Positions 2,577 through 13,920 of a stretch of 64,000 nt of DNA are shown piece after piece. The stretch is from Actinocrinis puniceicyclus (GTDB lineage: Bacteria; Actinomycetota; Actinomycetes; Streptomycetales; Catenulisporaceae). The translations under genes and the position numbers were made by a program. The DNA lies in the NCBI RefSeq assembly GCF_018283645.1, contig NZ_JAGSXH010000023.1, forward strand, positions 1-64,000, read 5' to 3'. Every line of letters begins with the position of its first letter. Position 1 is the stretch's first letter. Under the pieces are notes generated by a model that did no database searches, was not told the origin of the DNA, and saw only the letters and a program-made list of their open reading frames with translations.

Positions 2577-2730
2577 TCGGCCGCACGGCAGCCGCCCGCC
2601 CACCGAGTTCCGATCGCCCGCCGTCGCCGGGCGCCGCGCCGTTCCAAGCCCGCCCGCCCAGGGTAAGAAGCCTGAGATGTGGCCGGTCGGCGCTGCCGTC
2701 CGGCGGGGGCCAGACGCGGGGGGAGGCGCG

Positions 2731-4503
2731 GTGGCACAGACACGCCGCGAGCCGCTTTCGGCGCGCGCGATCACCACCGTCAGGCTGTTCTTCGTCGGTC
2801 TGGGGCTCAGTAGCCTGATACTCGGTTACCTCGGCCTTGGTCCCTACGTGCGCTCCCTTGAGGCGGCGAAACAGCTGCCCTCCGGCGACGACGGAACCAG
2901 CAACCTGGTCTACTTCGACGCCGAACTGTTCCTGCTCCAGTCCTATCCGCTGTCGGTGGGCGGTCCACCGCCGGGACCGCTGAACTTCGCCCGCTTCAGC
3001 GCTCCCTGCGTGGCCGCCTACACCCTCACCGAGATCGGCATCTCCGTGTCCGCGGCCCGGCTGCGGCGCTCACGCATCCGGCGGGCCAAGGGCCACGCCG
3101 TGGTCTGCGGCGCGACGAGGGCCGCCGAGGTCCTGGCCGCACGCCTGCGGGCGGAGGGAACCCGCGTGGTCACCATCGTTCCCGAGACCCTGGAACGCCC
3201 GGGCCGCGAGACACTGTGCGCGGACCCGCGCACGACGCACGCCCTGCTCGCGGCAGGTGCCCATCGCGCGGAGATGCTCTACGCCTGCCTCGACCGCGGC
3301 GAGGACAACGCGCAGGTCGCCGGGGCCGCCGAGGCCCTGCGCGCGGGCCGGGGGCGGCCGAAGCGCATCCATGTGCTGATTCCCGACCTGGAACTGTGCT
3401 CGGCGCTGCGGGCGCGGCGCTGGAGCCTGGCCGAGTCCCGCACCCGGCACCTCGGCTTCTTCAACCCGGACGAACTGGCGGCGCAGGCGACGGTTCGCGC
3501 CGACCGCGCGGCCTTCGACGGCATCACCCCGCAGATCGCGATCGTCGGCACCGGGGCCTTCGCGCGCAGCGTGCTGGTCGAGTTCGCGTGGCAGTGGGTC
3601 GCCAGAGGCGGAGCACAACGCGAACCCGCGCGGGTGATCCTCATCGGCGACGAGGCCGTCGAGACAGCCGCCGCGCTGTGCGGCCGCTACGCCTTCCTGC
3701 CCCGGGCATGCCGCATCGAGCCACGCACGGAACCGTTCGAACACGTACTCGCCGCGCGCTGGGGCGACCCGTCGCTGCGTCCGCTGCGCAGGCTCTACCT
3801 GTGCCAGGACGACGAGGGCGAAGCGCTGAAGGCCGCCCTGGACACCGCCGCCCAGCTACATGCGGCCTTCGCCGAGGTCGTCGTCCGGCTCGATCGGATG
3901 ACCGCGATGGCCGCCGGCTTCCGCGGCGACCGCGGCGGCGGCGTGCTCTTCGACGCGCTCGGCGGCCAACTGCGCCTGGTGGACGTCACCGGCGAGGGCT
4001 GCGACCCCGCGCTCGTCGATGACGATCTCGCCGAGGGCTTGGCCCGCGCCTGCCATCAGCGCTATCTCACCGAACTGCTCGACGGCGGCGCGATCCCCGG
4101 CAGCACCCCGGCCCTCGTGCCCTGGGAACGTCTCGCGGAGGAGTACCGGACCGCGAACCGGGACCAGGCCGCGGACATCGGCCGCAAGCTGGCCGCGATC
4201 GGCTGCCTGCTCACCCCGCGGCGCAGCGGAAGACCCTGCTTCCGCTGGCGCGACGGCGAACTGGAACGGCTCGCCGAACTGGAACACGAGCGGTGGGCCG
4301 CCGAGCGGCTCAGCCACGGCTGGGTGTGGGGCGCTCAGCGCGACGACGCGGCGAAGCGGCATCCCGACCTGGTGCCCTGGGACCTGCTGGCGGACCGGCA
4401 GCGCGAGCGGGACCGGCGAGCCGTGCGGGACCTGCCCCGCATGCTCGCAGACGCCGGCCTGGCGATCGTGCGGATCGGCCCGGGCGACTACCCGGATCCG
4501 TGA
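2731..4503 (+). CDS. Membrane protein with TrkA-N-like and RyR domains
   Basis: A 590-residue protein starting at a GTG behind a strong GGGGGAGG. Two hydrophobic helices (about residues 16-38 and 90-113) flank an extracytoplasmic loop; this is a two-helix channel-like layout, but the loop has no TVGYG potassium filter. A Rossmann region follows (HAVVCGATRAAEVLAARL, then IAIVGTGAFARSVLVEFA), like paired TrkA-N/RCK nucleotide-binding modules. The last 90 or so residues, beginning ELEHERWAAERLSHGW, are a prokaryotic RyR domain. Such domains are known from nucleotide-signalling and conflict contexts. It converges on the SLOG-like gene, overlapping its 3' end by 16 bases. Sensing a nucleotide ligand and altering the membrane is a hypothesis; transport has not been shown by sequence. 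Confidence 0.75.
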   Translation: MAQTRREPLSARAITTVRLFFVGLGLSSLILGYLGLGPYVRSLEAAKQLPSGDDGTSNLVYFDAELFLLQSYPLSVGGPPPGPLNFARFSAPCVAAYTLTEIGISVSAARLRRSRIRRAKGHAVVCGATRAAEVLAARLRAEGTRVVTIVPETLERPGRETLCADPRTTHALLAAGAHRAEMLYACLDRGEDNAQVAGAAEALRAGRGRPKRIHVLIPDLELCSALRARRWSLAESRTRHLGFFNPDELAAQATVRADRAAFDGITPQIAIVGTGAFARSVLVEFAWQWVARGGAQREPARVILIGDEAVETAAALCGRYAFLPRACRIEPRTEPFEHVLAARWGDPSLRPLRRLYLCQDDEGEALKAALDTAAQLHAAFAEVVVRLDRMTAMAAGFRGDRGGGVLFDALGGQLRLVDVTGEGCDPALVDDDLAEGLARACHQRYLTELLDGGAIPGSTPALVPWERLAEEYRTANRDQAADIGRKLAAIGCLLTPRRSGRPCFRWRDGELERLAELEHERWAAERLSHGWVWGAQRDDAAKRHPDLVPWDLLADRQRERDRRAVRDLPRMLADAGLAIVRIGPGDYPDP

Positions 4504-5063
4504 CCGCGGTGCTCCCGCCGCGCTCCGGGCGGCCAGATCACCGCGACGTGCATCCGGCGCGACCGCGCGATCTCGACGACGTGCGCCGTCCCTCCCGGCT
4601 TGGCTGAGCGGTGCCCGTCCCACACCGCGACGAGCGAGTCGACCGAGGCGAGCATCGCGTCGTTCGCCGCCACGTAGGTGTGCGGGGTCGCGGTCGGACC
4701 CTCGATCGCGCGCACCGAGTCCGCCTGCCGCAACAGCGCCGCGAACGAACTCGGCGCGCAGTCCTCGTCGGTCTGGTCGCGGTATCCGGCGGACGGCAGG
4801 ATCACTTCGAGCCGGCCGCCGAGGTCGAGCAGCACCCGCGCGAAGATCCGGTCCGCGCCGGGCGCCAGGCAGCTGACTCCGACCAGGCCGGCGGCATCGG
4901 CCCCGAGCCCCCTGAGGTGGCCGCGCAGCGCCTCGGCCACCAGCCGCACCGTTTCCGGACCGAGATCCATGTGCCCGGTGACGCCGACGCGCACGGTGCG
5001 GCCCGTCGCGCGGGCCGGGCCCGCGGCCGCGGCCGGCGCCGACTTCGCCAAGGTGATACCCAC
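4488..5063 (-). CDS. SLOG-like Rossmann nucleotide-binding protein
   Basis: A protein of about 191 residues with the pattern of SLOG/LOG-like Rossmann proteins: VRVGVTGHMDL near the N-terminus, CLAPGADRIFARVLLDLGG, then LVAVWDGHRSAKPGGTAHVV and a final strand VAVIWPP. The family binds nucleotides or their derivatives and is often found beside effectors in signalling and conflict systems. The start is uncertain: GTG 5063 is used because it leaves a short leader before the first strand; its ribosome site is weak, and a TTG at 5051 is possible. The gene converges on the RyR/TrkA-N gene and is divergent from fxsA, with a long structured gap between. It may make or sense the ligand of its RyR neighbour (inference). 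Confidence 0.7.
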   Translation of the reverse strand: MGITLAKSAPAAAAGPARATGRTVRVGVTGHMDLGPETVRLVAEALRGHLRGLGADAAGLVGVSCLAPGADRIFARVLLDLGGRLEVILPSAGYRDQTDEDCAPSSFAALLRQADSVRAIEGPTATPHTYVAANDAMLASVDSLVAVWDGHRSAKPGGTAHVVEIARSRRMHVAVIWPPGARREHRGHGSG

Positions 5064-5750
5064 AACCCCGCAGTCTGCCCGCTGAAACCACCCTCTTAAC
5101 GCACTCAACACCCTGAAAAAGCCTTGAGAGGCACGGCGGCGCGACCACTCGGCCCGGTTCCCATAGTGTCCCGCGCCGGAAATCCGCCGTGAAAATCGGC
5201 CCCCGCATCCCGCCTGGCCGCGTTGCCGAAACGCCCACAGACGACCCACTGCGTTGATTGAGCACCGCGAGGGTGTTCCGGCGCCTTGCCAGCCGGGCGC
5301 GGATGACCGGACGCGCGCAGCCAGGTCGAGCAGAGTCATGCGACGGATTTCCGGCGCGGGACACCAGCGCCCGTGGCGCGAGCGGCGAGTTCCGGACCGC
5401 GCCGATTCGCCCGCTGCGCGGTCCCGCAAGTGCGGCGGATTCGTGATGTTCCGTTGGCCGCAACCGGTACTACAGGGCACTGCGTTGTGATTGAATTCAC
5501 GTGTGCAAAAGCACAGGGGTGGGAAGCGCTCGGCGGTGATGCCCGCGACCGGCTTCGGCCGTGTCCGCGCAGCGAGGCCCGATTCAATCCCGTCCGGCGT
5601 CGCGACGCGCGGTCGCCCCGGTGCGCTCGAAGCCCGCCCTTCCGTCTGGCGCCAGGTAGCGCTTACTCACCCGCGTAGCCTAACCCGCGTGTCTTCGTGT
5701 TCATCCGGGCGTTGGACGGCCGTCAACCATTGACAAGCTGAAGGATGACC
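5064..5750. promoter_or_regulatory. Long divergent intergenic region upstream of fxsA
   Basis: No frame in these 687 bases looks like a real protein. It holds a perfect inverted repeat (listed separately), two near-copies of CACTGCGTTG followed by ATTGA at 5247-5261 and 5478-5494, and a small hairpin around 5500-5515. It must include the promoters of fxsA and the SLOG-like gene, but no clear -35/-10 was recognised. Confidence 0.4.
5166..5364. repeat. Perfect 21-bp inverted repeat with 157-base spacer
   Basis: Bases 5166-5186 and 5344-5364 are exact reverse complements over 21 bases; the left arm begins GTGTCCCGCGCC and ends AATCCG. Similarity fades just outside and inside the arms. The spacer codes for nothing evident. 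Such a long exact match is not expected by chance. It may be a small transposable relic, a long-range RNA stem or a pair of regulator sites. No flanking target duplication was identified. Confidence 0.7.
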
Positions 5751-5924
5751 GTGCCCTCCACCCTGACTCAGTCCGGTCCGCAGACCCAGGTTCCGGACGT
5801 CCACAACCTCCCGCTCGGCGAACGGTCCGAGGAGAGGCTGTCGGCCACCGCCGCCATCCGCGAGCGGGTTCTGCGGAAAACCGGCTCGGGAGTCACGGCC
5901 GCCGCCTTCCAGTCCTCGATCTGA
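5751..5924 (+). CDS. fxsA: FxsA, FxSxx-COOH peptide precursor
   Basis: A 57-residue peptide whose last five residues are F-Q-S-S-I, an exact match to the F-x-S-x-x-COOH signature of the substrate of FxsB-type maturases. The N-terminal two thirds are a polar leader with PDVHNLPLGER and a charged helix (ATAAIRERVLRK); the core follows a short Gly/Ala stretch. The GTG start at 5751 is preferred because AAGGA lies five bases upstream; the ATG at 5745 would add two residues but overlaps that site. fxsB begins 19 bases after the stop. By analogy with other three-residue cyclophane-forming systems, the Phe and Ser of the core are the likely crosslink sites. The mature product and its role are unknown. 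Confidence 0.88.
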   Translation: MPSTLTQSGPQTQVPDVHNLPLGERSEERLSATAAIRERVLRKTGSGVTAAAFQSSI

Positions 5925-5943
5925 TCCCGGCGGGCGGCTCGGC

Positions 5944-8394
5944 ATGGTCGCCGGTCCCGCGGTGCTGCCGTTCCGGCACTACGTCCTGAAGCTGCACAGC
6001 AGGTGCGACCTGGCCTGCGACCACTGCTACGTCTACGAGCACGCCGACCAGTCCTGGCGCGGCCGCCCTCTCGCCCTGAGCGAGGAGGCGGCCGCGCGCA
6101 TCGCCGACCGCATCGTCGAACACACCGTGCGGCACACTCTCGGGCGGATCACGGTCGTTCTGCACGGGGGCGAGCCGCTGCTCTACGGTGCCGAGCGCAC
6201 TCGCGCGCTACTGTCCCTCTTCCGGGAGCGGATCACTCCTTACACGAAGCTTGATTTCAGGATCCATACCAACGCGGTGCGACTCGACCGCGATTTTCTC
6301 GACCTGTTCGCCGAGTTCGCCGTCAGCGTCGGGGTCTCGCTCGACGGTGACCGCTCCGCCAACGACCTGCACCGGCGCTACGCGAGCGGCCGCAGCAGCC
6401 ATTCGCGGGTCCTGAGCGCGCTCTCGCTGTTGCGGGAACCGCGCTACCGGCATCTCTATGCCGGCATCCTGTGCACGATCGACATCAGGAACGATCCCGG
6501 CAGGGTGTACGAGGCGCTCGCCGCCGAACAGCCGCCGCGCGCTGATCTGCTCCTGCCGCATGCGACTTGGGACCATCCGCCGCTGCGCGGCGTGCGCCGG
6601 GACGAGCACGGGCCACCCGAGTACGCGGCGTGGCTGACCGCGGTCTACGACCGCTGGGCGAAGGACGGCCGGCCCTTCGCGATCCGCACCTTCGACTCCA
6701 TATCCGGCATCCTGCGCGGCCGGCCGAGCCAGACCGAATCGCTGGGCCTGGCCCCCGCCGCCCTGGTCGTGATCGAGACGGACGGCAGCCTGGAACAGGC
6801 GGACTCGCTCAAGACCGCCTACGACGGCGCCGGCGCGACCGGCTTCAACGTCTTCGAGCACAGCTTCGACCAGGCCGCGGCGCACGCGGGCATCACCGCC
6901 CGGCAGGGCGGCGCCGAGTCCCTGTGCGCCACCTGCCGCGCCTGCCCCGTCGTCGAGATCTGCGGCGGCGGGCTGTACGCGCACCGGCACCGAGCCGGCA
7001 GCGGCTTCGCCAACCCCTCAGTCTACTGCGAAGATATCAAGGCAATGATCGAACATATTGAACGGGATGAAACCCGGCGCCACGCCGAAGCGGCGATCGC
7101 GCCCCACGTCGGTTCGCTGCGCGATTTCGACCTGCTGGCCTCCGGTCTCGGGGGCGAGGACGAGGTGGGCCGGCTCGGCGCACCGCAGCGCTCGATCACC
7201 AGAGAACTGGTGAAGTCCGTCGGCGAGCAGGTGCCGCCGCGATCGCCGTTCGCGGCGGCCTGGCAGGAACTGGTCCGGCTCGACCAGTCCAATCCCGCGC
7301 AACTCGGCGCGGTGCTCGCCGATCCGTATACGCGCGTGTGGGCGGTACGAGTCCTGCAACGCGAACACGAGGCGCCCGCCGACGACGAGCTCACCCGGCT
7401 CTCGGAGCTGGCCGCCGCTACCGCGCTGCTGTCCGGCGAGGCGGTCCGCCTCCCGCTGCACGTCGTCGACGGCATCGTGCACCTGCCCACGATCGGCGCG
7501 CTCGCGCTCGGCGGTCCGGCCCGTCCCGCGGCGATCGAGACCCGCAAGGACGGCACCGCGACGATCACGGCCGACCTGACCGACTACGAGATCTGCCTCG
7601 CCGAGGCCGCGGTGCGCGCCGACGCCCGCTGGCTGCCCACCCGCAGCCTGCGGGCAGGCTCCTGGTCTCTCGCCGTGCAGGACACCGACCCTTATCGCGA
7701 CTGCCACCAGTGGCCCGCCGCCGGGCGCCTTTCCGACGACGAGGCCCGGCACTGGGAACAGTGCCTAGGCGAGGCGGCCGCGTTCCTGGAGGAGTCGATG
7801 CCGGCCTACCCGCCGGGGCTCCGCGCCGGTTTGAGTACCCTGATGCCATTGGCCCCCCCGCCCGCCGGTCGCGACCTGAGCGCCACGGCCCGCCACGCGT
7901 ACGGGGCCGTGGGGCTGGCGATGCCCGGCGACGGTCCGACGCTCGCCCTGCTGCTGATCCACGAATTCCAGCACATCAAACTCAATGCGCTGCTGGATAT
8001 GTATGACCTTTACGACACCAACGATGAGCGCAGGTACTACGCGCCGTGGCGGGACGATCCGCGGCCGCTCGAAGGGCTGCTTCAGGGTACTTATGCACAT
8101 CTCGCGGTGACAGACTATTGGCGGGTACGCAGCCGCGAGAGCGCCGCCGCGCAGCGGGAAGCCGCCGAAATCCAGTTCGCCCGATGGCGGCTGCACACGG
8201 CCGAGGCGGTCGAGGAACTGCTGCGCTCCGGTTCGCTCACCGCGCTCGGCGAGCGTTTCGCCCGCGTCATGGGCGACGCGCTCGCGCCTTGGCTCGACGA
8301 ACCGGTCGGGCACGGCGCGGCGGCCGCCGCGCAGCAGGCTGTGCAGGCCGACCGCGGTGCCTGGCAGGCCCGTCGGCAGGCGAACGCCGGCTGA
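5944..8394 (+). CDS. fxsB: FxsB radical SAM/SPASM peptide maturase with HExxH domain
   Basis: An 816-residue fused enzyme. Cys21, Cys25 and Cys28 (CDLACDHC) are the radical SAM 4Fe-4S ligands, and VVLHGGEPLLYG is the glycine-rich SAM-binding strand. Around residues 320-365 the cysteine cluster LCATCRACPVVEICGGG, with a later VYCEDI, forms the SPASM region for auxiliary clusters. The last 400 or so residues are a second domain with LLLIHEFQHIKLNALLDM, a HExxH motif typical of a domain fused to or encoded beside peptide maturases. FxsB-family enzymes are classed as three-residue cyclophane formers on FxSxx peptides. The HExxH half may add a second modification; that is inference. No good ribosome site is seen, so translation may depend on fxsA. 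A hairpin repeat lies just downstream. Confidence 0.93.
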   Translation: MVAGPAVLPFRHYVLKLHSRCDLACDHCYVYEHADQSWRGRPLALSEEAAARIADRIVEHTVRHTLGRITVVLHGGEPLLYGAERTRALLSLFRERITPYTKLDFRIHTNAVRLDRDFLDLFAEFAVSVGVSLDGDRSANDLHRRYASGRSSHSRVLSALSLLREPRYRHLYAGILCTIDIRNDPGRVYEALAAEQPPRADLLLPHATWDHPPLRGVRRDEHGPPEYAAWLTAVYDRWAKDGRPFAIRTFDSISGILRGRPSQTESLGLAPAALVVIETDGSLEQADSLKTAYDGAGATGFNVFEHSFDQAAAHAGITARQGGAESLCATCRACPVVEICGGGLYAHRHRAGSGFANPSVYCEDIKAMIEHIERDETRRHAEAAIAPHVGSLRDFDLLASGLGGEDEVGRLGAPQRSITRELVKSVGEQVPPRSPFAAAWQELVRLDQSNPAQLGAVLADPYTRVWAVRVLQREHEAPADDELTRLSELAAATALLSGEAVRLPLHVVDGIVHLPTIGALALGGPARPAAIETRKDGTATITADLTDYEICLAEAAVRADARWLPTRSLRAGSWSLAVQDTDPYRDCHQWPAAGRLSDDEARHWEQCLGEAAAFLEESMPAYPPGLRAGLSTLMPLAPPPAGRDLSATARHAYGAVGLAMPGDGPTLALLLIHEFQHIKLNALLDMYDLYDTNDERRYYAPWRDDPRPLEGLLQGTYAHLAVTDYWRVRSRESAAAQREAAEIQFARWRLHTAEAVEELLRSGSLTALGERFARVMGDALAPWLDEPVGHGAAAAAQQAVQADRGAWQARRQANAG

Positions 8395-8400
8395 CAGTTC

Positions 8401-8451
8401 GCGCGGACAGCCGTGCCGCACAGGCGTCCGGTGAGGTACCCCTGTCCGCGC
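8401..8451. repeat. Short palindromic repeat, related to 33881-34038
   Basis: Arms 8401-8410 (GCGCGGACAG) and 8442-8451 pair perfectly around a 31-base loop, seven bases after the fxsB stop. The right arm with flank (8436-8453) reads GGTACCCCTGTCCGCGCG and is almost the same as the arms of the larger element at 33881-34038 (CTATCC in place of CTGTCC). It could end or slow transcription between fxsB and fxsC, or be a dispersed palindromic repeat. There is no T-run, so it is not a canonical terminator. Confidence 0.6.
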
Positions 8452-8650
8452 GCACCGTGAATTTCCCGTCCGGGCGCGAGTTACCGGGCGGCCTTCCCCA
8501 GCCTCTTCGAACCCCGGCCTCCTCGAAGGCGGCCGTGGCGTGCGCAGATCGATTCGCCACGGCCAAATTCGGAGAAACCCTTTCGCTGCCATCACAGACT
8601 TCTTACAGTGTTTGCCGGGGAGGCTAAGCGGTACGTGGGAGGGAGACCGC

Positions 8651-9976
8651 ATGTCGGTCGGCTCGGCCGGGCCTGCCGACAGGCCTGCCCGTTTCTTCCT
8701 CAGCTACGCGCATCCACGCCGTCCCGGCCGCCGCGACGACCCGCCGGACAAGCCGGTGCGGGACTTCTACCGCGACCTTTCCGAGGAGGTCGCCGCGCTC
8801 GCCGGGCTGCCGCGCTCGGCGCCGGTCGGCTTCGCGGACTGGCAGATCCGCACCGGCCAGTACTGGCAGCGCGAACTGGGCCACGTGCTGGCGACCTGCT
8901 CGGTCTTCGTCGCGCTGTACTCCCCGGACTATTTCGGGCGCCCGATCTGCGGCCAGGAGTGGGCCGCGTTCCACCGCCGCGAGCAGACCCACCGCGCCAG
9001 CACCAGGGCGGACAAGGCCGCGATAGTCCCCGTGATGTGGCGGCCCGTGGACAGCGGCAGCATGCCGCCCGTCGCAAAACGCATCCATTACGCGCTGCCC
9101 GACGCCGGCGAACTCTACCGGCGCCGCGGCATGCGGGAACTGGTGATGCGAAGCAACCGCGAAGAGATCCGGTTCGCGTACCGCACCGCGCTGGAAGCGT
9201 TCGCCCAGCACATCGCCTGGGTCGCGGACACCGACCCGCTGCCGCCGATGGACGGCGGAATGGTGCACCTCGACCCGCACGAGAACGCCTTCGAGGGCGG
9301 TTGGAACCCGGACGATCCGCGCCCGCTGCGCTTCGTCGTCGTCGCGCCGGTGCGCGGGAAACTGCCCTCCGGGGCGAACCCGGAAATGTACGGCAACAGC
9401 CCGGAACAGTGGCGTCCCTACTGGCCCGCGAACCACACGCCGATCGCCGAGACCGCCACCCTGCTCGGCGAGGCGGACGGATTCCACCCCATCGTCGAAT
9501 TCCTCGGCTCCTGCCACGATCTGCGCGACGGCGCCGAACCGAGCGCGCCCACGGTGCTGATCGTGGACCCGTGGGCCGCGCAGGACCCGGAACTGCGGCG
9601 GCAGCTCAGTGAGTTCGACCGGATCAGCCACGACAAGCCGTGGGTGCGTCTGGTGGTCCCCTGGGACAAGGAGCGATCGGGCGACGGCGACCTGGTCGAC
9701 TTCCTCGAACGCGGCCTGCAGCGGGCACTGGACCGCACCCGCGCGCAATGCCGGCTGCACACTCCCGAGGCGGTCGCCGGCCTGCCCACGGTCGCGGCCT
9801 TCGGCGCCCGGCTGCCCGGGGTGATCGCCGCGGCCGAGCGCGGCTACTTCCGCAGCACCGCGACATACCCGCCCGGCAACGAAGCGCCGCCGCTGCCCCG
9901 GCTCAGCGGCGCGCCGCCCGCGGCCGGGCCGGCGGACGCGGACGCGCACGAAGCGACGGAAGGGGATGGCGAATGA
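8651..9976 (+). CDS. fxsC: FxsC, TIR-like protein of the FxSxx-COOH system
   Basis: A 441-residue protein opening with a TIR-like domain: RFFLSYAHPR as first strand and box 1, DFYRDLSEEVAAL as first helix, VFVALYSPDYF as a later strand, and a Cys-Gly-Gln-Glu where TIR proteins carry their key glutamate. The C-terminal half has a further alpha/beta region (LRFVVVAPVRGKLP and PTVLIVDPWAAQDP) ending in a Pro/Ala-rich tail. It matches the TIR-like protein that accompanies FxsA/FxsB in actinobacteria. The ATG at 8651 follows GGGAGGGAG; a longer frame from 8540 lacks a ribosome site. The 256-base gap after fxsB suggests a separate promoter. It overlaps fxsT as ATGA. NADase activity is possible but not shown. 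Confidence 0.9.
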   Translation: MSVGSAGPADRPARFFLSYAHPRRPGRRDDPPDKPVRDFYRDLSEEVAALAGLPRSAPVGFADWQIRTGQYWQRELGHVLATCSVFVALYSPDYFGRPICGQEWAAFHRREQTHRASTRADKAAIVPVMWRPVDSGSMPPVAKRIHYALPDAGELYRRRGMRELVMRSNREEIRFAYRTALEAFAQHIAWVADTDPLPPMDGGMVHLDPHENAFEGGWNPDDPRPLRFVVVAPVRGKLPSGANPEMYGNSPEQWRPYWPANHTPIAETATLLGEADGFHPIVEFLGSCHDLRDGAEPSAPTVLIVDPWAAQDPELRRQLSEFDRISHDKPWVRLVVPWDKERSGDGDLVDFLERGLQRALDRTRAQCRLHTPEAVAGLPTVAAFGARLPGVIAAAERGYFRSTATYPPGNEAPPLPRLSGAPPAAGPADADAHEATEGDGE

Positions 9977-12900
9977 CCGACGAGACGCGCGGCAGGATCG
10001 TCACGTTCTACTCGTTCAAGGGCGGGACGGGGCGGACGATGGCGCTGGCGAACACCGCCTGGATCCTGGCCTCCGCCGGACTGAGGGTCCTGATGGTCGA
10101 CTGGGACCTCGAGTCCCCGGGCCTGCACCGCTTCTTCGAGCCCTTCCTCGACGCCGAGACCGTCTCCGGCAACTCGGGCGTGATCGACCTGATCAAGGAC
10201 TACCAGTGGGCGGTGACCCGGGCCAGCGACCGGCCGATGGACGAGCAGCGGCTGCGCGAACTGGCGCGGGTCGGCCCGCACGTGGTGCCGATGGACTGGG
10301 CCTTCCCGTCCGGGGGCTCGCTGGACCTGCTGTGCGCGGGGCGCCAGGACCGCAACTACTCCGCCGCGGTCGCCTCGCTGGACTGGGACAACTTCTACGA
10401 CCGGCTCGGCGGCGGACAGTTCTTCGACGCGCTGCGCGAGGACATTCGCGCCGAGTACGACTACGCCCTCATCGACAGCCGCACCGGGCTGAGCGACGCG
10501 GCGGCGATCTGCACGGTGCACCTGCCGGACGTGCTGGTCACCTGCTTCACGCTGAGCAACCAGGGCATCGACGGCGCGGCGAGCGTGGTCAAGGAGATCA
10601 CCACCGACTACGCGAACCACAACATCAGAATCCTGCCCGTACCCAGCCGCATCGACGAGGGCGAGAAGGAGAAGGCCGACACCGGGCGCCGGCTGGCCCG
10701 CTCCCGGTTCGCCTCGCTGCCCTCCGGGCTCTCACCGCAGCGGTCGGCGGAGTACTGGGGCTCGGTGGAGATCCCGTACCGGCCCTTCTACGCGTACGAG
10801 GAGATCCTGGCCACCTTCGGCGACGCGCCCGGCGTGGCCAACTCGATGCTTTCCGCCTTCGAACGGCTCACCGGGTATCTCACCGACGGCGCGGTCACCG
10901 CGTACAACCCGGTGCCCGAGGCCGAACGGCTGCGCGTCCTGGGCGCCTTCACGCGCAAACACGTCCCGGAGTCGGCCCGCCTGCTGCTCAGTTTCGTGCC
11001 GGAGAACCGGTTCTGGGCCGAGTGGATCGAGGCCGTGCTGACGAACGCCGGCGCCCAGGTGGAGCGCTTCGATCCAAACGGGGGCCCGCAGGAGCGCGCC
11101 ACGGCGCTCACCTGTGACAGGATTCTGATCGTCGCGTCGGCCGCTTATATGCGTTCTGAGACTTACCGCGCGCTGAACGCCGACCTGATCGATCTCAACC
11201 GCGTCGGCGGCGCCGAGCGGGCCGTGATGCTGAACGTCGACAACGCGCGCATCGGCGAAGCCTTCGCGGCGGGCCGGATCTTCGACCTCGGTGGCCTGGG
11301 GCAGTCGCAGGCCGTGGACGCGTTGCTTCGCTCGGCGGGCCTCACCGCCGGCGCGGGCCCCGCGCCGCCGGACCGGACGAGCCCGCGCTTCCCCGGCAAC
11401 ACCCCGGGTGTGTTCAACGTGCCGCAACGCAACGCCAATTTCACCGGTCGCAACGCCGCCCTCGACAAGCTGCGCGAGCAACTGGTCTCGGGCAGTTCCT
11501 CGGTCCTGCTCCCGGTCGCGCTGCACGGCCTCGGCGGTGTCGGGAAGACACAGCTGGCGCTCGAGTACGCGTACCGCTTCCGAGCCGACTACGACCTGGT
11601 GTGGTGGGTCAACGCGGAGCAGGACGAGACAGTCGTCGAATCGCTCTCGCAGCTGGCCCGCCGCCTGGGTATCCCGGTCGGCGACAGCAGCGCCGCGGCC
11701 GCCGAGGACGCGGTGCAGGAACTGCGCCGGCGTGGGGCCGAGTTCCGGTGGCTGCTCGTGTTCGACAACGCGGACGAGCCCGAGCAGCTGATCCAGTTCC
11801 TGCCACGCGGCGCGAGCGGCCACACGCTGGTCACCTCGCGCAATCAGGGTTGGGCGGCGATCGCCAAGCCGCTTGAGGTCAACGTGTTCGACCGCGCCGA
11901 GAGCGTGGAATTGCTCACCCGCCGCGTCACCGGGCTCAGCGAGAGCGACGCGGACCGGGTCGCGCAGGCGCTCGGGGACCTGCCGCTGGCCGTCGAGGTC
12001 GCGGCCGCGTGGCTGAAGGTGACCGGGACACCGGTCGACGACTATCTCGACCTGCTCGACGCCCAGGCGTCCGTGGCCCTCTCGGTGACCAGGCCCGCGG
12101 ATTACGCGCTGCCCGTGGAGGCCACCTGGAACATCTCCCTGGACCGGTTGCAGCAGCGTTCGCCCGCGGCGGTGCGCATGCTGCAACTGTGCGCGTTCAT
12201 GGCGCCGTCGATCTCGCTCACGCTGATCCGCAGCCGGGAGATGGTGGACGCGCTGCGCGCGCACGATCCCTCGCTGCGCGAGCAGCTGGTCGTCGGCCAG
12301 GTGATCCAGGAGATCGGCCGGCTCGCGCTGGCGAAGGTCGACCGGCGCAGCAACACCATCCAGATCCACCGGCTGGTCCAGGCGGTGATCCGGGAGCAGA
12401 TGCCGCCGCAGGTGCGGGAGGACACGCAGCACACGGTACACCGGATCCTCGCGGCGACCTGGCCGGACGAGCCGGACACCGACAACCCGGAGAACTGGTC
12501 CAGGTACGCGGTGATCTGGCCGCACCTGGAACCGTCCCGCGCCCTCGAATGCGTCGAGGAGCCGGTGCGCCAACTGCTCGTCGAACGAGTCAGGTACCTG
12601 TATCGCATCGGCAGCCTGGAGTCGGCGCTGGCGACCGCGAAGCCGCTGGAGGCGACCTGGCAGGCCGCCGTGGACACGCACGCTCTACCCGCCTCGGATC
12701 CCGAGCTGGAGACCGCGTTGCGACGCCAGTTGCTGAGCCTGCGCTACGAGATCGCGAACATCCAGCGCTCCCGGGGCGAGTACGTCGAGGCGCGCGAGAT
12801 CGACCAGGCCGCGCTGGCGGAGCTGACCGCGGTCCTCGGCCCGGACAGTCCGCGTACCCTGATGACGGCGCGCAGCCTCGCCGCCGACCTTCGGGGCCTG

Positions 12901-13920
12901 AGCCGGTACGGCGATGCGCTCGCCATGGACCGGGAGACGTACAACAGCTTCCGCGAGGTGCTCGGCGAGGACGACCCGGGCACGCTGATGGCCGCGAACA
13001 ATCTCGCGATCTCCTACCGCCTGGTCGGGGACTGCTTCACCGCGCTGCGGATCGACGAGGAGACCCACGCCAAGCGCAGCGAGATCCTCGGTCCCACGCA
13101 CCCTCACACGCTGATCTCCGCCGGGCACCTGGCCCGTGACCTGCGCGAGGCCGGGCAGTTCGAGCGCTCGGTGACGCAACTGGAGGCGGCCCTGAGCTCC
13201 TTCCAGCGGCTCGGCCGGACCCTGCCGGAGACGCTGCGCACCGCCAAGTCGCTCGCCGTCTCGCTGCGGCGCGCCGGGCAGGTCACGCGGGCACGGGCAC
13301 TGACCGAGGAGACGTACGCGCTGTACGTCAGCGAATCCGAGGCCGAGACGCCGGACGCTTTCGCGTGCCTTCTCAACCACGCCGCGGACCTGTCAGTGCA
13401 CGAAGAAAAGCGCGACGCCGTGGACGAGACCCGCAGGGTGCACGAGGCGTACCGGTCCACGTACGGCGAGGAGCACCCGTACACGCTGATGTGTCTGACG
13501 AACCTTTCGATGTACGAGCGCGGCACCAGGCGGTTTGACAGCGCGGTGGTGCACGCGCGCCAGGCCCACGACGGACTGCTGCGCACGGTCGGCGAGCAGC
13601 ATCCGTATACGCTGTGCGCCGCGCTGAACCTGGCGAACGCCCTGGCCGAACTGGCGCGGTTCACCGACGCGCTCGCGCTGGAGACCGGCGCGAGCGAGGG
13701 GCTGTCGGCGCGCCTCGGCGAAACCCACCCGGACGTGCTGATCGCGCAGGCGAACCTCGCGGTGACGCTGCGCCAGCTCGGCCGCTCCAGGGAGGCGGAC
13801 GCGCTGCGGGAGCGCGCGGTGGCGGCCCTGGCCGAGAAACTGGGCGCCGAGCACCCGAACACCAAGGCCGTCCGCGGCGGCAAACGGGTCAGCCGGGACC
13901 TGGAACCGCAGCCGATCTGA
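9973..13920 (+). CDS. fxsT: FxsT, FxSxx-COOH system MinD/TIR-like/NB-ARC/TPR protein
   Basis: A 1315-residue multidomain protein. Residues 8-300: a MinD/ParA-like ATPase with KGGTGRT (signature Lys16 kept, the second Lys replaced by Arg21) and LMVDWDLESPG. Residues about 335-455: a TIR-like segment (RLLLSFVPENRFWAEWI, ILIVASAAYM). Residues about 480-800: an NB-ARC/STAND ATPase with HGLGGVGKTQLALEYAY, WLLVFDNADEP (Walker B) and GDLPLAVEVAAAWL. Residues about 850-1290: tandem tetratricopeptide repeats of the kinesin-light-chain type, with recurrent LG..HP.TL blocks. STAND proteins usually switch on when the repeat region senses a ligand. The start overlaps the fxsC stop as ATGA, so the two are probably made together. 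It converges on the next gene. Confidence 0.92.
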   Translation: MTDETRGRIVTFYSFKGGTGRTMALANTAWILASAGLRVLMVDWDLESPGLHRFFEPFLDAETVSGNSGVIDLIKDYQWAVTRASDRPMDEQRLRELARVGPHVVPMDWAFPSGGSLDLLCAGRQDRNYSAAVASLDWDNFYDRLGGGQFFDALREDIRAEYDYALIDSRTGLSDAAAICTVHLPDVLVTCFTLSNQGIDGAASVVKEITTDYANHNIRILPVPSRIDEGEKEKADTGRRLARSRFASLPSGLSPQRSAEYWGSVEIPYRPFYAYEEILATFGDAPGVANSMLSAFERLTGYLTDGAVTAYNPVPEAERLRVLGAFTRKHVPESARLLLSFVPENRFWAEWIEAVLTNAGAQVERFDPNGGPQERATALTCDRILIVASAAYMRSETYRALNADLIDLNRVGGAERAVMLNVDNARIGEAFAAGRIFDLGGLGQSQAVDALLRSAGLTAGAGPAPPDRTSPRFPGNTPGVFNVPQRNANFTGRNAALDKLREQLVSGSSSVLLPVALHGLGGVGKTQLALEYAYRFRADYDLVWWVNAEQDETVVESLSQLARRLGIPVGDSSAAAAEDAVQELRRRGAEFRWLLVFDNADEPEQLIQFLPRGASGHTLVTSRNQGWAAIAKPLEVNVFDRAESVELLTRRVTGLSESDADRVAQALGDLPLAVEVAAAWLKVTGTPVDDYLDLLDAQASVALSVTRPADYALPVEATWNISLDRLQQRSPAAVRMLQLCAFMAPSISLTLIRSREMVDALRAHDPSLREQLVVGQVIQEIGRLALAKVDRRSNTIQIHRLVQAVIREQMPPQVREDTQHTVHRILAATWPDEPDTDNPENWSRYAVIWPHLEPSRALECVEEPVRQLLVERVRYLYRIGSLESALATAKPLEATWQAAVDTHALPASDPELETALRRQLLSLRYEIANIQRSRGEYVEAREIDQAALAELTAVLGPDSPRTLMTARSLAADLRGLSRYGDALAMDRETYNSFREVLGEDDPGTLMAANNLAISYRLVGDCFTALRIDEETHAKRSEILGPTHPHTLISAGHLARDLREAGQFERSVTQLEAALSSFQRLGRTLPETLRTAKSLAVSLRRAGQVTRARALTEETYALYVSESEAETPDAFACLLNHAADLSVHEEKRDAVDETRRVHEAYRSTYGEEHPYTLMCLTNLSMYERGTRRFDSAVVHARQAHDGLLRTVGEQHPYTLCAALNLANALAELARFTDALALETGASEGLSARLGETHPDVLIAQANLAVTLRQLGRSREADALRERAVAALAEKLGAEHPNTKAVRGGKRVSRDLEPQPI

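Follow-up and report, generated by a model that had tools for sequence, protein, structure and literature searches.

A complete FxSxx-COOH cassette in Actinocrinis puniceicyclus and a comparative hint of the HExxH site in its precursor FxsA

Layout of the cassette and its precursor peptide

We analyzed a 64,000-nucleotide stretch of the Actinocrinis puniceicyclus genome (contig NZ_JAGSXH010000023.1, positions 1 to 64,000 of the forward strand; hereafter the window). From position 5745 or 5751, depending on the start codon, to position 13,920 it holds an intact and complete FxSxx-COOH cassette. The contiguous set consists of fxsA, fxsB, fxsC and fxsT only, with a hydrolase gene downstream (Table 1). 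The FxSxx family, its Phe–Ser cyclophane chemistry and a proposed role in conflict have been described before. We add a comparative hint, suggested by residue conservation, of the site in the precursor peptide FxsA that is acted on by the α-ketoglutarate (aKG)-HExxH domain of the maturase FxsB.

The four families, the gene order and the radical SAM plus HExxH architecture given in a preliminary description of this DNA are borne out. Among curated NCBIfam models, FxsB scores 542 bits with TIGR04269 (cut-off 370) and 171 bits with the aKG-HExxH model TIGR04267 (cut-off 40), and the remaining matches, for FxsC (both halves) and FxsT, are NF040588 (180 bits, cut-off 130), TIGR04276 (126, cut-off 55), NF047398 (146, cut-off 90) and NF040586 (979, cut-off 300). 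FxsA ends in a C-terminal FxSxx, FxsB is a SPASM maturase with an intact HExxH, FxsC is TIR-like, and FxsT carries TPR and NB-ARC parts; with all motifs intact, decay of the cassette was ruled out. Gene set, order, domains and active-site motifs are those of the FxSxx-COOH system (TIGR04268, TIGR04269, TIGR04267, NF040588/TIGR04276, NF040586), from which the window cassette differs in an FxsA under the family cut-off, no AAC(3)-like gene between fxsB and fxsC, and a hairpin after fxsB. As to the gene junctions described earlier, the 19-base gap between fxsA and fxsB and the ATGA overlap of fxsC (end, 9976) with fxsT (start, 9973) both stand. However, fxsB and fxsC lie 256 bp apart, with a strong hairpin inside the gap, so fxsC–fxsT is the only overlap.

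The fxsA frame has two possible starts, an ATG (59 aa) and a GTG (57 aa), the latter with the better Shine–Dalgarno spacing, from GAAGGA at 5740. The peptide ends in GVTAAAFQSSI, and its gene ends at 5924, ahead of the fxsB start at 5944. Its TIGR04268 match (E 6e-4) lies below the cut-off, so automatic annotation would miss fxsA, in keeping with the earlier remark that the short precursor is easily missed. Our sample comprised 80 loci of named genomes, 60 of relatives, and the window; 115 of these loci have a fused FxsB (L140 counted by hand). An FxsA-like frame, recognized by profile or by hand, sits just upstream of the radical SAM start at every one of the 115, and a strict pattern (an FxSx[ILV] end) recovers it at 93 of 113 loci. 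The chance expectation is 0.0026 per locus for frames of at least 30 aa ending in FxSx[ILV] within a 400-bp stretch around the fxsB start. Absence of fxsA-like peptides from homologous loci, named earlier as an observation that would speak against the assignment, was therefore not what we found. FxsA distances track FxsB (ρ = 0.50, 0.46) more than FxsT or FxsC; co-evolution of FxsA with the FxsT TPR was weak (ρ = 0.29) and was not used.

Table 1. Features of the FxSxx-COOH cassette in window coordinates.
Feature	Coordinates	Strand	Basis
fxsA, precursor peptide	5745..5924 (ATG 5745) or 5751..5924 (GTG 5751)	+	TIGR04268 19.9 bits (cut-off 28); kept at 115/115 fused-type loci
V-T-A-A-A directly before the core Phe; predicted HExxH target	5892..5906	+	constraint at −5, −3, −2 and −1 lost in HExxH-dead clade (suggestive)
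F-Q-S-S-I core; predicted Phe-to-Ser cyclophane	5907..5921	+	F in 151/151, S in 139/151 loci (part of the selection pattern)
fxsB, fused radical SAM/SPASM and aKG-HExxH maturase, 816 aa	5944..8394	+	NCBIfam; sequence matches to PDB 22nu and 9gm3
Radical SAM/SPASM domain of FxsB	5971..7062	+	TIGR04269 542 bits
aKG-HExxH-type domain of FxsB; HEFQH at 7960-7974	7768..8271	+	TIGR04267 171 bits
Hairpin directly behind the fxsB stop codon; may serve as a terminator or attenuator separating fxsAB from fxsCT	8394..8458	+	inverted repeat; −39.5 kcal/mol, z −4.2
fxsC, TIR protein whose C-terminal domain is specific to the family; Glu103 (8957-8959) predicted to be catalytic	8651..9976	+	NCBIfam; Glu in 111/113 homologues
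fxsT, KGG-x-G-R MinD-like domain, Glu-less TIR-like stretch, NB-ARC and TPR	9973..13920	+	NF040586 979 bits
NB-ARC P-loop GLGGVGKT of FxsT	11527..11550	+	Lys in 126/126 aligned homologues

FxsB chemistry and the FxsA segment before the core Phe

MscB belongs to IPR026335, which we take to be the FxsB family. It is reported to join Phe C4 to Ser Cβ, and it shares with FxsB, as do other three-residue cyclophane synthases, the SPASM radical SAM type and a Phe-x-Ser target (PMC11002830). By this analogy, the three-residue Phe–Ser ring proposed earlier is a well-founded prediction for the F-Q-S of FxsA. In contrast to MscB-type triceptides, the window FxsB carries a fused aKG-HExxH domain, and its product is a predicted one.

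The HExxH motif of FxsB is intact (HEFQH at residue 673), and its domain is predicted to be an Fe(II)/aKG oxygenase. Along its length the domain aligns to PDB 22nu (E 8e-84), an entry whose deposited name is radical SAM core domain-containing protein; FxsB also matches PDB 9gm3 by sequence. Motif and domain likewise match ChlB/ChlH and other aKG-HExxH enzymes (PDB 9gm3, 8s5f; PflC/PosC, PesO). Such enzymes hydroxylate side chains, β-hydroxylation included, with His, Asp, Phe, Gln and Pro as known targets; PflC/PosC are also able to cleave the peptide backbone, at Ala (PMC12636437, PMC13060819). In contrast to those studied enzymes, the V-A-A target in FxsA is a predicted one.

The HExxH motif is lost in 12 of the 115 fused-type loci. 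We fetched 40 more HExxH-dead loci, all but one from a single genus, and compared FxsA tails across 151 loci, 102 HExxH-intact and 49 HExxH-dead; the HExxH-dead loci L196, L199 and L203, with no FxsA by the pattern used, were left out. The pattern constrains positions 0, +1, +2 and +4, and the unbiased positions are those before the Phe and +3. HExxH-intact tails read V-x-V-A-A-F-[N/Q]-[S/A]-x-[I/V/L], with Ala or Ser at −2 in all 102, Val at −3 in 86 and Ala at −1 in 84. HExxH-dead tails keep the Phe (49/49) and the Ser (46/49), whereas Ala occurs at −1 in 1 of the 49; in the dead clade F-[N/D]-S stays and V-x-V-A-A drifts. The change can be expressed as entropy by comparing an intact and a dead sister clade, each with 47 rows and much alike in depth (radical SAM p-distance 0.25 and 0.28). 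From the intact to the dead clade it goes from 1.37 to 3.26 bits at −5, 0.68 to 2.90 at −3, 0.34 to 2.56 at −2, and 0.15 to 1.54 at −1, whereas at −8 to −6, −4, and 0 to +4 the rise is at most 0.5 bit.

On the simplest reading, these data suggest that V-x-V-A-A in FxsA is a stretch which the HExxH domain recognizes or modifies; the radical SAM domain would then target F-x-S, and the HExxH domain V-A-A. The Asn or Gln at x of F-x-S was considered as a hydroxylation site and ruled out as a specific HExxH mark, because Asn, Gln or Asp is kept there in HExxH-dead loci; the segment before the Phe is thus the better candidate for a +16 Da change or a cut. The +16 Da change attributed to the HExxH domain in the preliminary description accordingly keeps its proposed enzyme, with this segment rather than the FxS motif as its candidate site. 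Co-occurrence of the same kind correctly pointed to the hydroxylated Pro in the nitrilobacillin/PesO case (PMC13060819).

Several features of the comparison weigh against this assignment. On the radical SAM domain tree the HExxH state changes three times, with 47 of the 49 dead rows in one clade, and these were too few events for a paired test of the independence of the V-A-A association. There are two dead singletons: L142 roughly fits, and L144 keeps A-A. The dead clade also has a preference of its own, for Thr at −1 (32/49). Because HExxH loss is essentially one event, V-x-V-A-A should be taken as the HExxH target with caution.

Receptor-like proteins, neighboring genes, and related systems

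The preliminary description placed TIR-like parts in the products of both fxsC and fxsT. Both were found, with the correction that the FxsT stretch lacks the catalytic Glu. The FxsC model resembles plant TIR domains, with RUN1-type domains among the best PDB folds (E 0.03–0.1; none below E 0.001), and with its catalytic Glu kept FxsC is a putative TIR NADase. The N terminus of FxsT has a MinD/ParA fold with Arg in place of the Walker A Lys in 115/115, and its NB-ARC P-loop is normal. We infer that FxsT and FxsC sense or act on the peptide, in a putative defense or self/non-self role; as a working model, the pseudo-TIR of FxsT would recruit the catalytic TIR of FxsC upon binding of the peptide or a cue. 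VMAP-ternary and related conflict systems with FxSxx peptides have in common with it an AP-ATPase/TPR protein that includes MinD-like and TIR-like parts and is linked to a peptide-processing module, whereas the window cassette is of the stand-alone type, without a vWA or MoxR gene (PMC7159879).

FxsC and FxsT lie downstream of FxsB at 103 of the 115 fused-type loci, several of the others being cut by contig ends. Across the phylum, FxsC was present in 4 of 397 sampled genomes, all four with a fused FxsB. FxSxx systems occur in 40 of 60 relatives, with up to four per genome, and no relatives of the cassette were found on viral contigs.

A second, split FxSxx system lies in the same genome (L009, contig C111 128000-147500). 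Like the window cassette it has an FxsB, an HExxH protein, an FxsA and an FxsT (fxsB2, fxsA2, fxsT2), whereas its HExxH protein is encoded by a separate gene and there is no fxsC. That it might lack an FxsA was ruled out, as fxsA2 is present, flanked by the HExxH gene and fxsT2. FxsA2 scores 38–39 bits, above the TIGR04268 cut-off, and continues for 21 residues past FASSI, so the "-COOH" of the family name is not strict. Near this system there is also a third FxSxx TPR gene. Loci L168-L188 encode a short FxsB and an FxSxx TPR protein of ~1000 aa, and some but not all have an HExxH gene of its own; considered as a contrast set, they proved not clean, having other precursors (for example that of L177, ending in EMLWGFNNSL).

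Variation among precursors includes F-x-A in place of F-x-S in nine loci (L034, L039, L040, L043, L134, L150, L158, L159 and L160), where the predicted ring may close on Ala Cβ, and a second FxsA-like frame, with VSAFQSSI as its end, at L047:9353-9565, 0.4 kb ahead of the other one in the direction of upstream. An AAC(3)-like acetyltransferase gene (PF02522, under the NCBIfam AAC_3 cut-off) stands between fxsB and fxsC at 35 of 115 loci (e.g. L047:12238-13083); its product could acylate the peptide. The window hairpin perhaps separates peptide-making from receptor genes; as a general terminator after fxsB it was ruled out for the family, only 8% of loci folding well there. Upstream of the cassette are a gene for a protein with TrkA-N and RyR domains (2677-4503) and a divergent open reading frame on the minus strand (4488-5480) with a SLOG-type nucleotide-binding look by eye and no above-threshold Pfam match. 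RyR domains occur in nucleotide-centered conflict systems.

Proposed mechanism and alternatives

Taken as a whole, the locus is probably best explained by a cyclophane-bearing, HExxH-oxidized FxsA peptide that acts with FxsT and FxsC in a self/non-self or infection response. FxsB would bind the FxsA leader, and its radical SAM/SPASM domain would link the Phe with the Ser at +2 to form a three-residue cyclophane. The C-terminal aKG/Fe HExxH domain would then oxidize V-x-[V/A]-A-A before the Phe by hydroxylation or, less surely, by oxidative cleavage, which would release the C-terminal peptide. Once mature, the peptide would stay with the cell and act with the STAND switch FxsT (NB-ARC/TPR) and the TIR protein FxsC. 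In this scheme the HExxH site within the family, what becomes of the peptide, and the roles of FxsT and FxsC are inferred. The weak family match of the window FxsA tells against the explanation, as does the PADLOC result, in which the MinD-like part of FxsT gave the sole match, to a candidate model. In a bolder version, which we regard as a long shot, FxsB would be a bifunctional enzyme that closes the ring and whose HExxH domain cuts FxsA oxidatively at the conserved Ala before the cyclophane, yielding without a protease a ketoacyl-capped FxSxx peptide as the internal ligand by which the NLR-like STAND protein restrains or fires the TIR NADase.

Kaur et al. 2020 put forward such peptides as amplifiers of conflict systems and described the HExxH part as a peptidase (PMC7159879). 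On that proposal the domain would be a zinc peptidase whose cleavage of FxsA releases a toxin or signal peptide from the C terminus. V-A-A before the Phe would suit a protease site, and some proteolysis in the absence of a leader is seen with the HExxH enzyme PflC (PMC12636437). We nevertheless consider this improbable: the domain matches the curated aKG-HExxH β-hydroxylase model, and its studied relatives are Fe/aKG enzymes (PMC12636437, PMC13060819).

The small hydrophobic FxsA core could also be read as a triceptide that is secreted as an antibiotic or pheromone, in which case FxsT and FxsC would serve regulation or immunity. Other three-residue cyclophane peptides are secreted. An exporter or a separate protease is, however, absent from the cassette, in which STAND and TIR proteins, not transporters, are the constant partners, and such a product is unlikely here. 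A developmental or housekeeping signaling device in place of defense is somewhat doubtful: concentration in multicellular actinobacteria and the patchy but frequent occurrence in relatives are consistent with it, whereas patchiness combined with multiple copies per genome, together with TIR and STAND parts, is more typical of conflict systems.

FxSxx systems couple a ribosomal ring peptide to parts like those of plant NLRs. Precursors that, like the window FxsA, score under the curated cut-off are likely missing from annotations. The tail comparison names the residues to examine, V-x-V-A-A before the Phe, so that the suggested HExxH target is now a specific test, and one large clade in the same order provides natural HExxH-dead controls.

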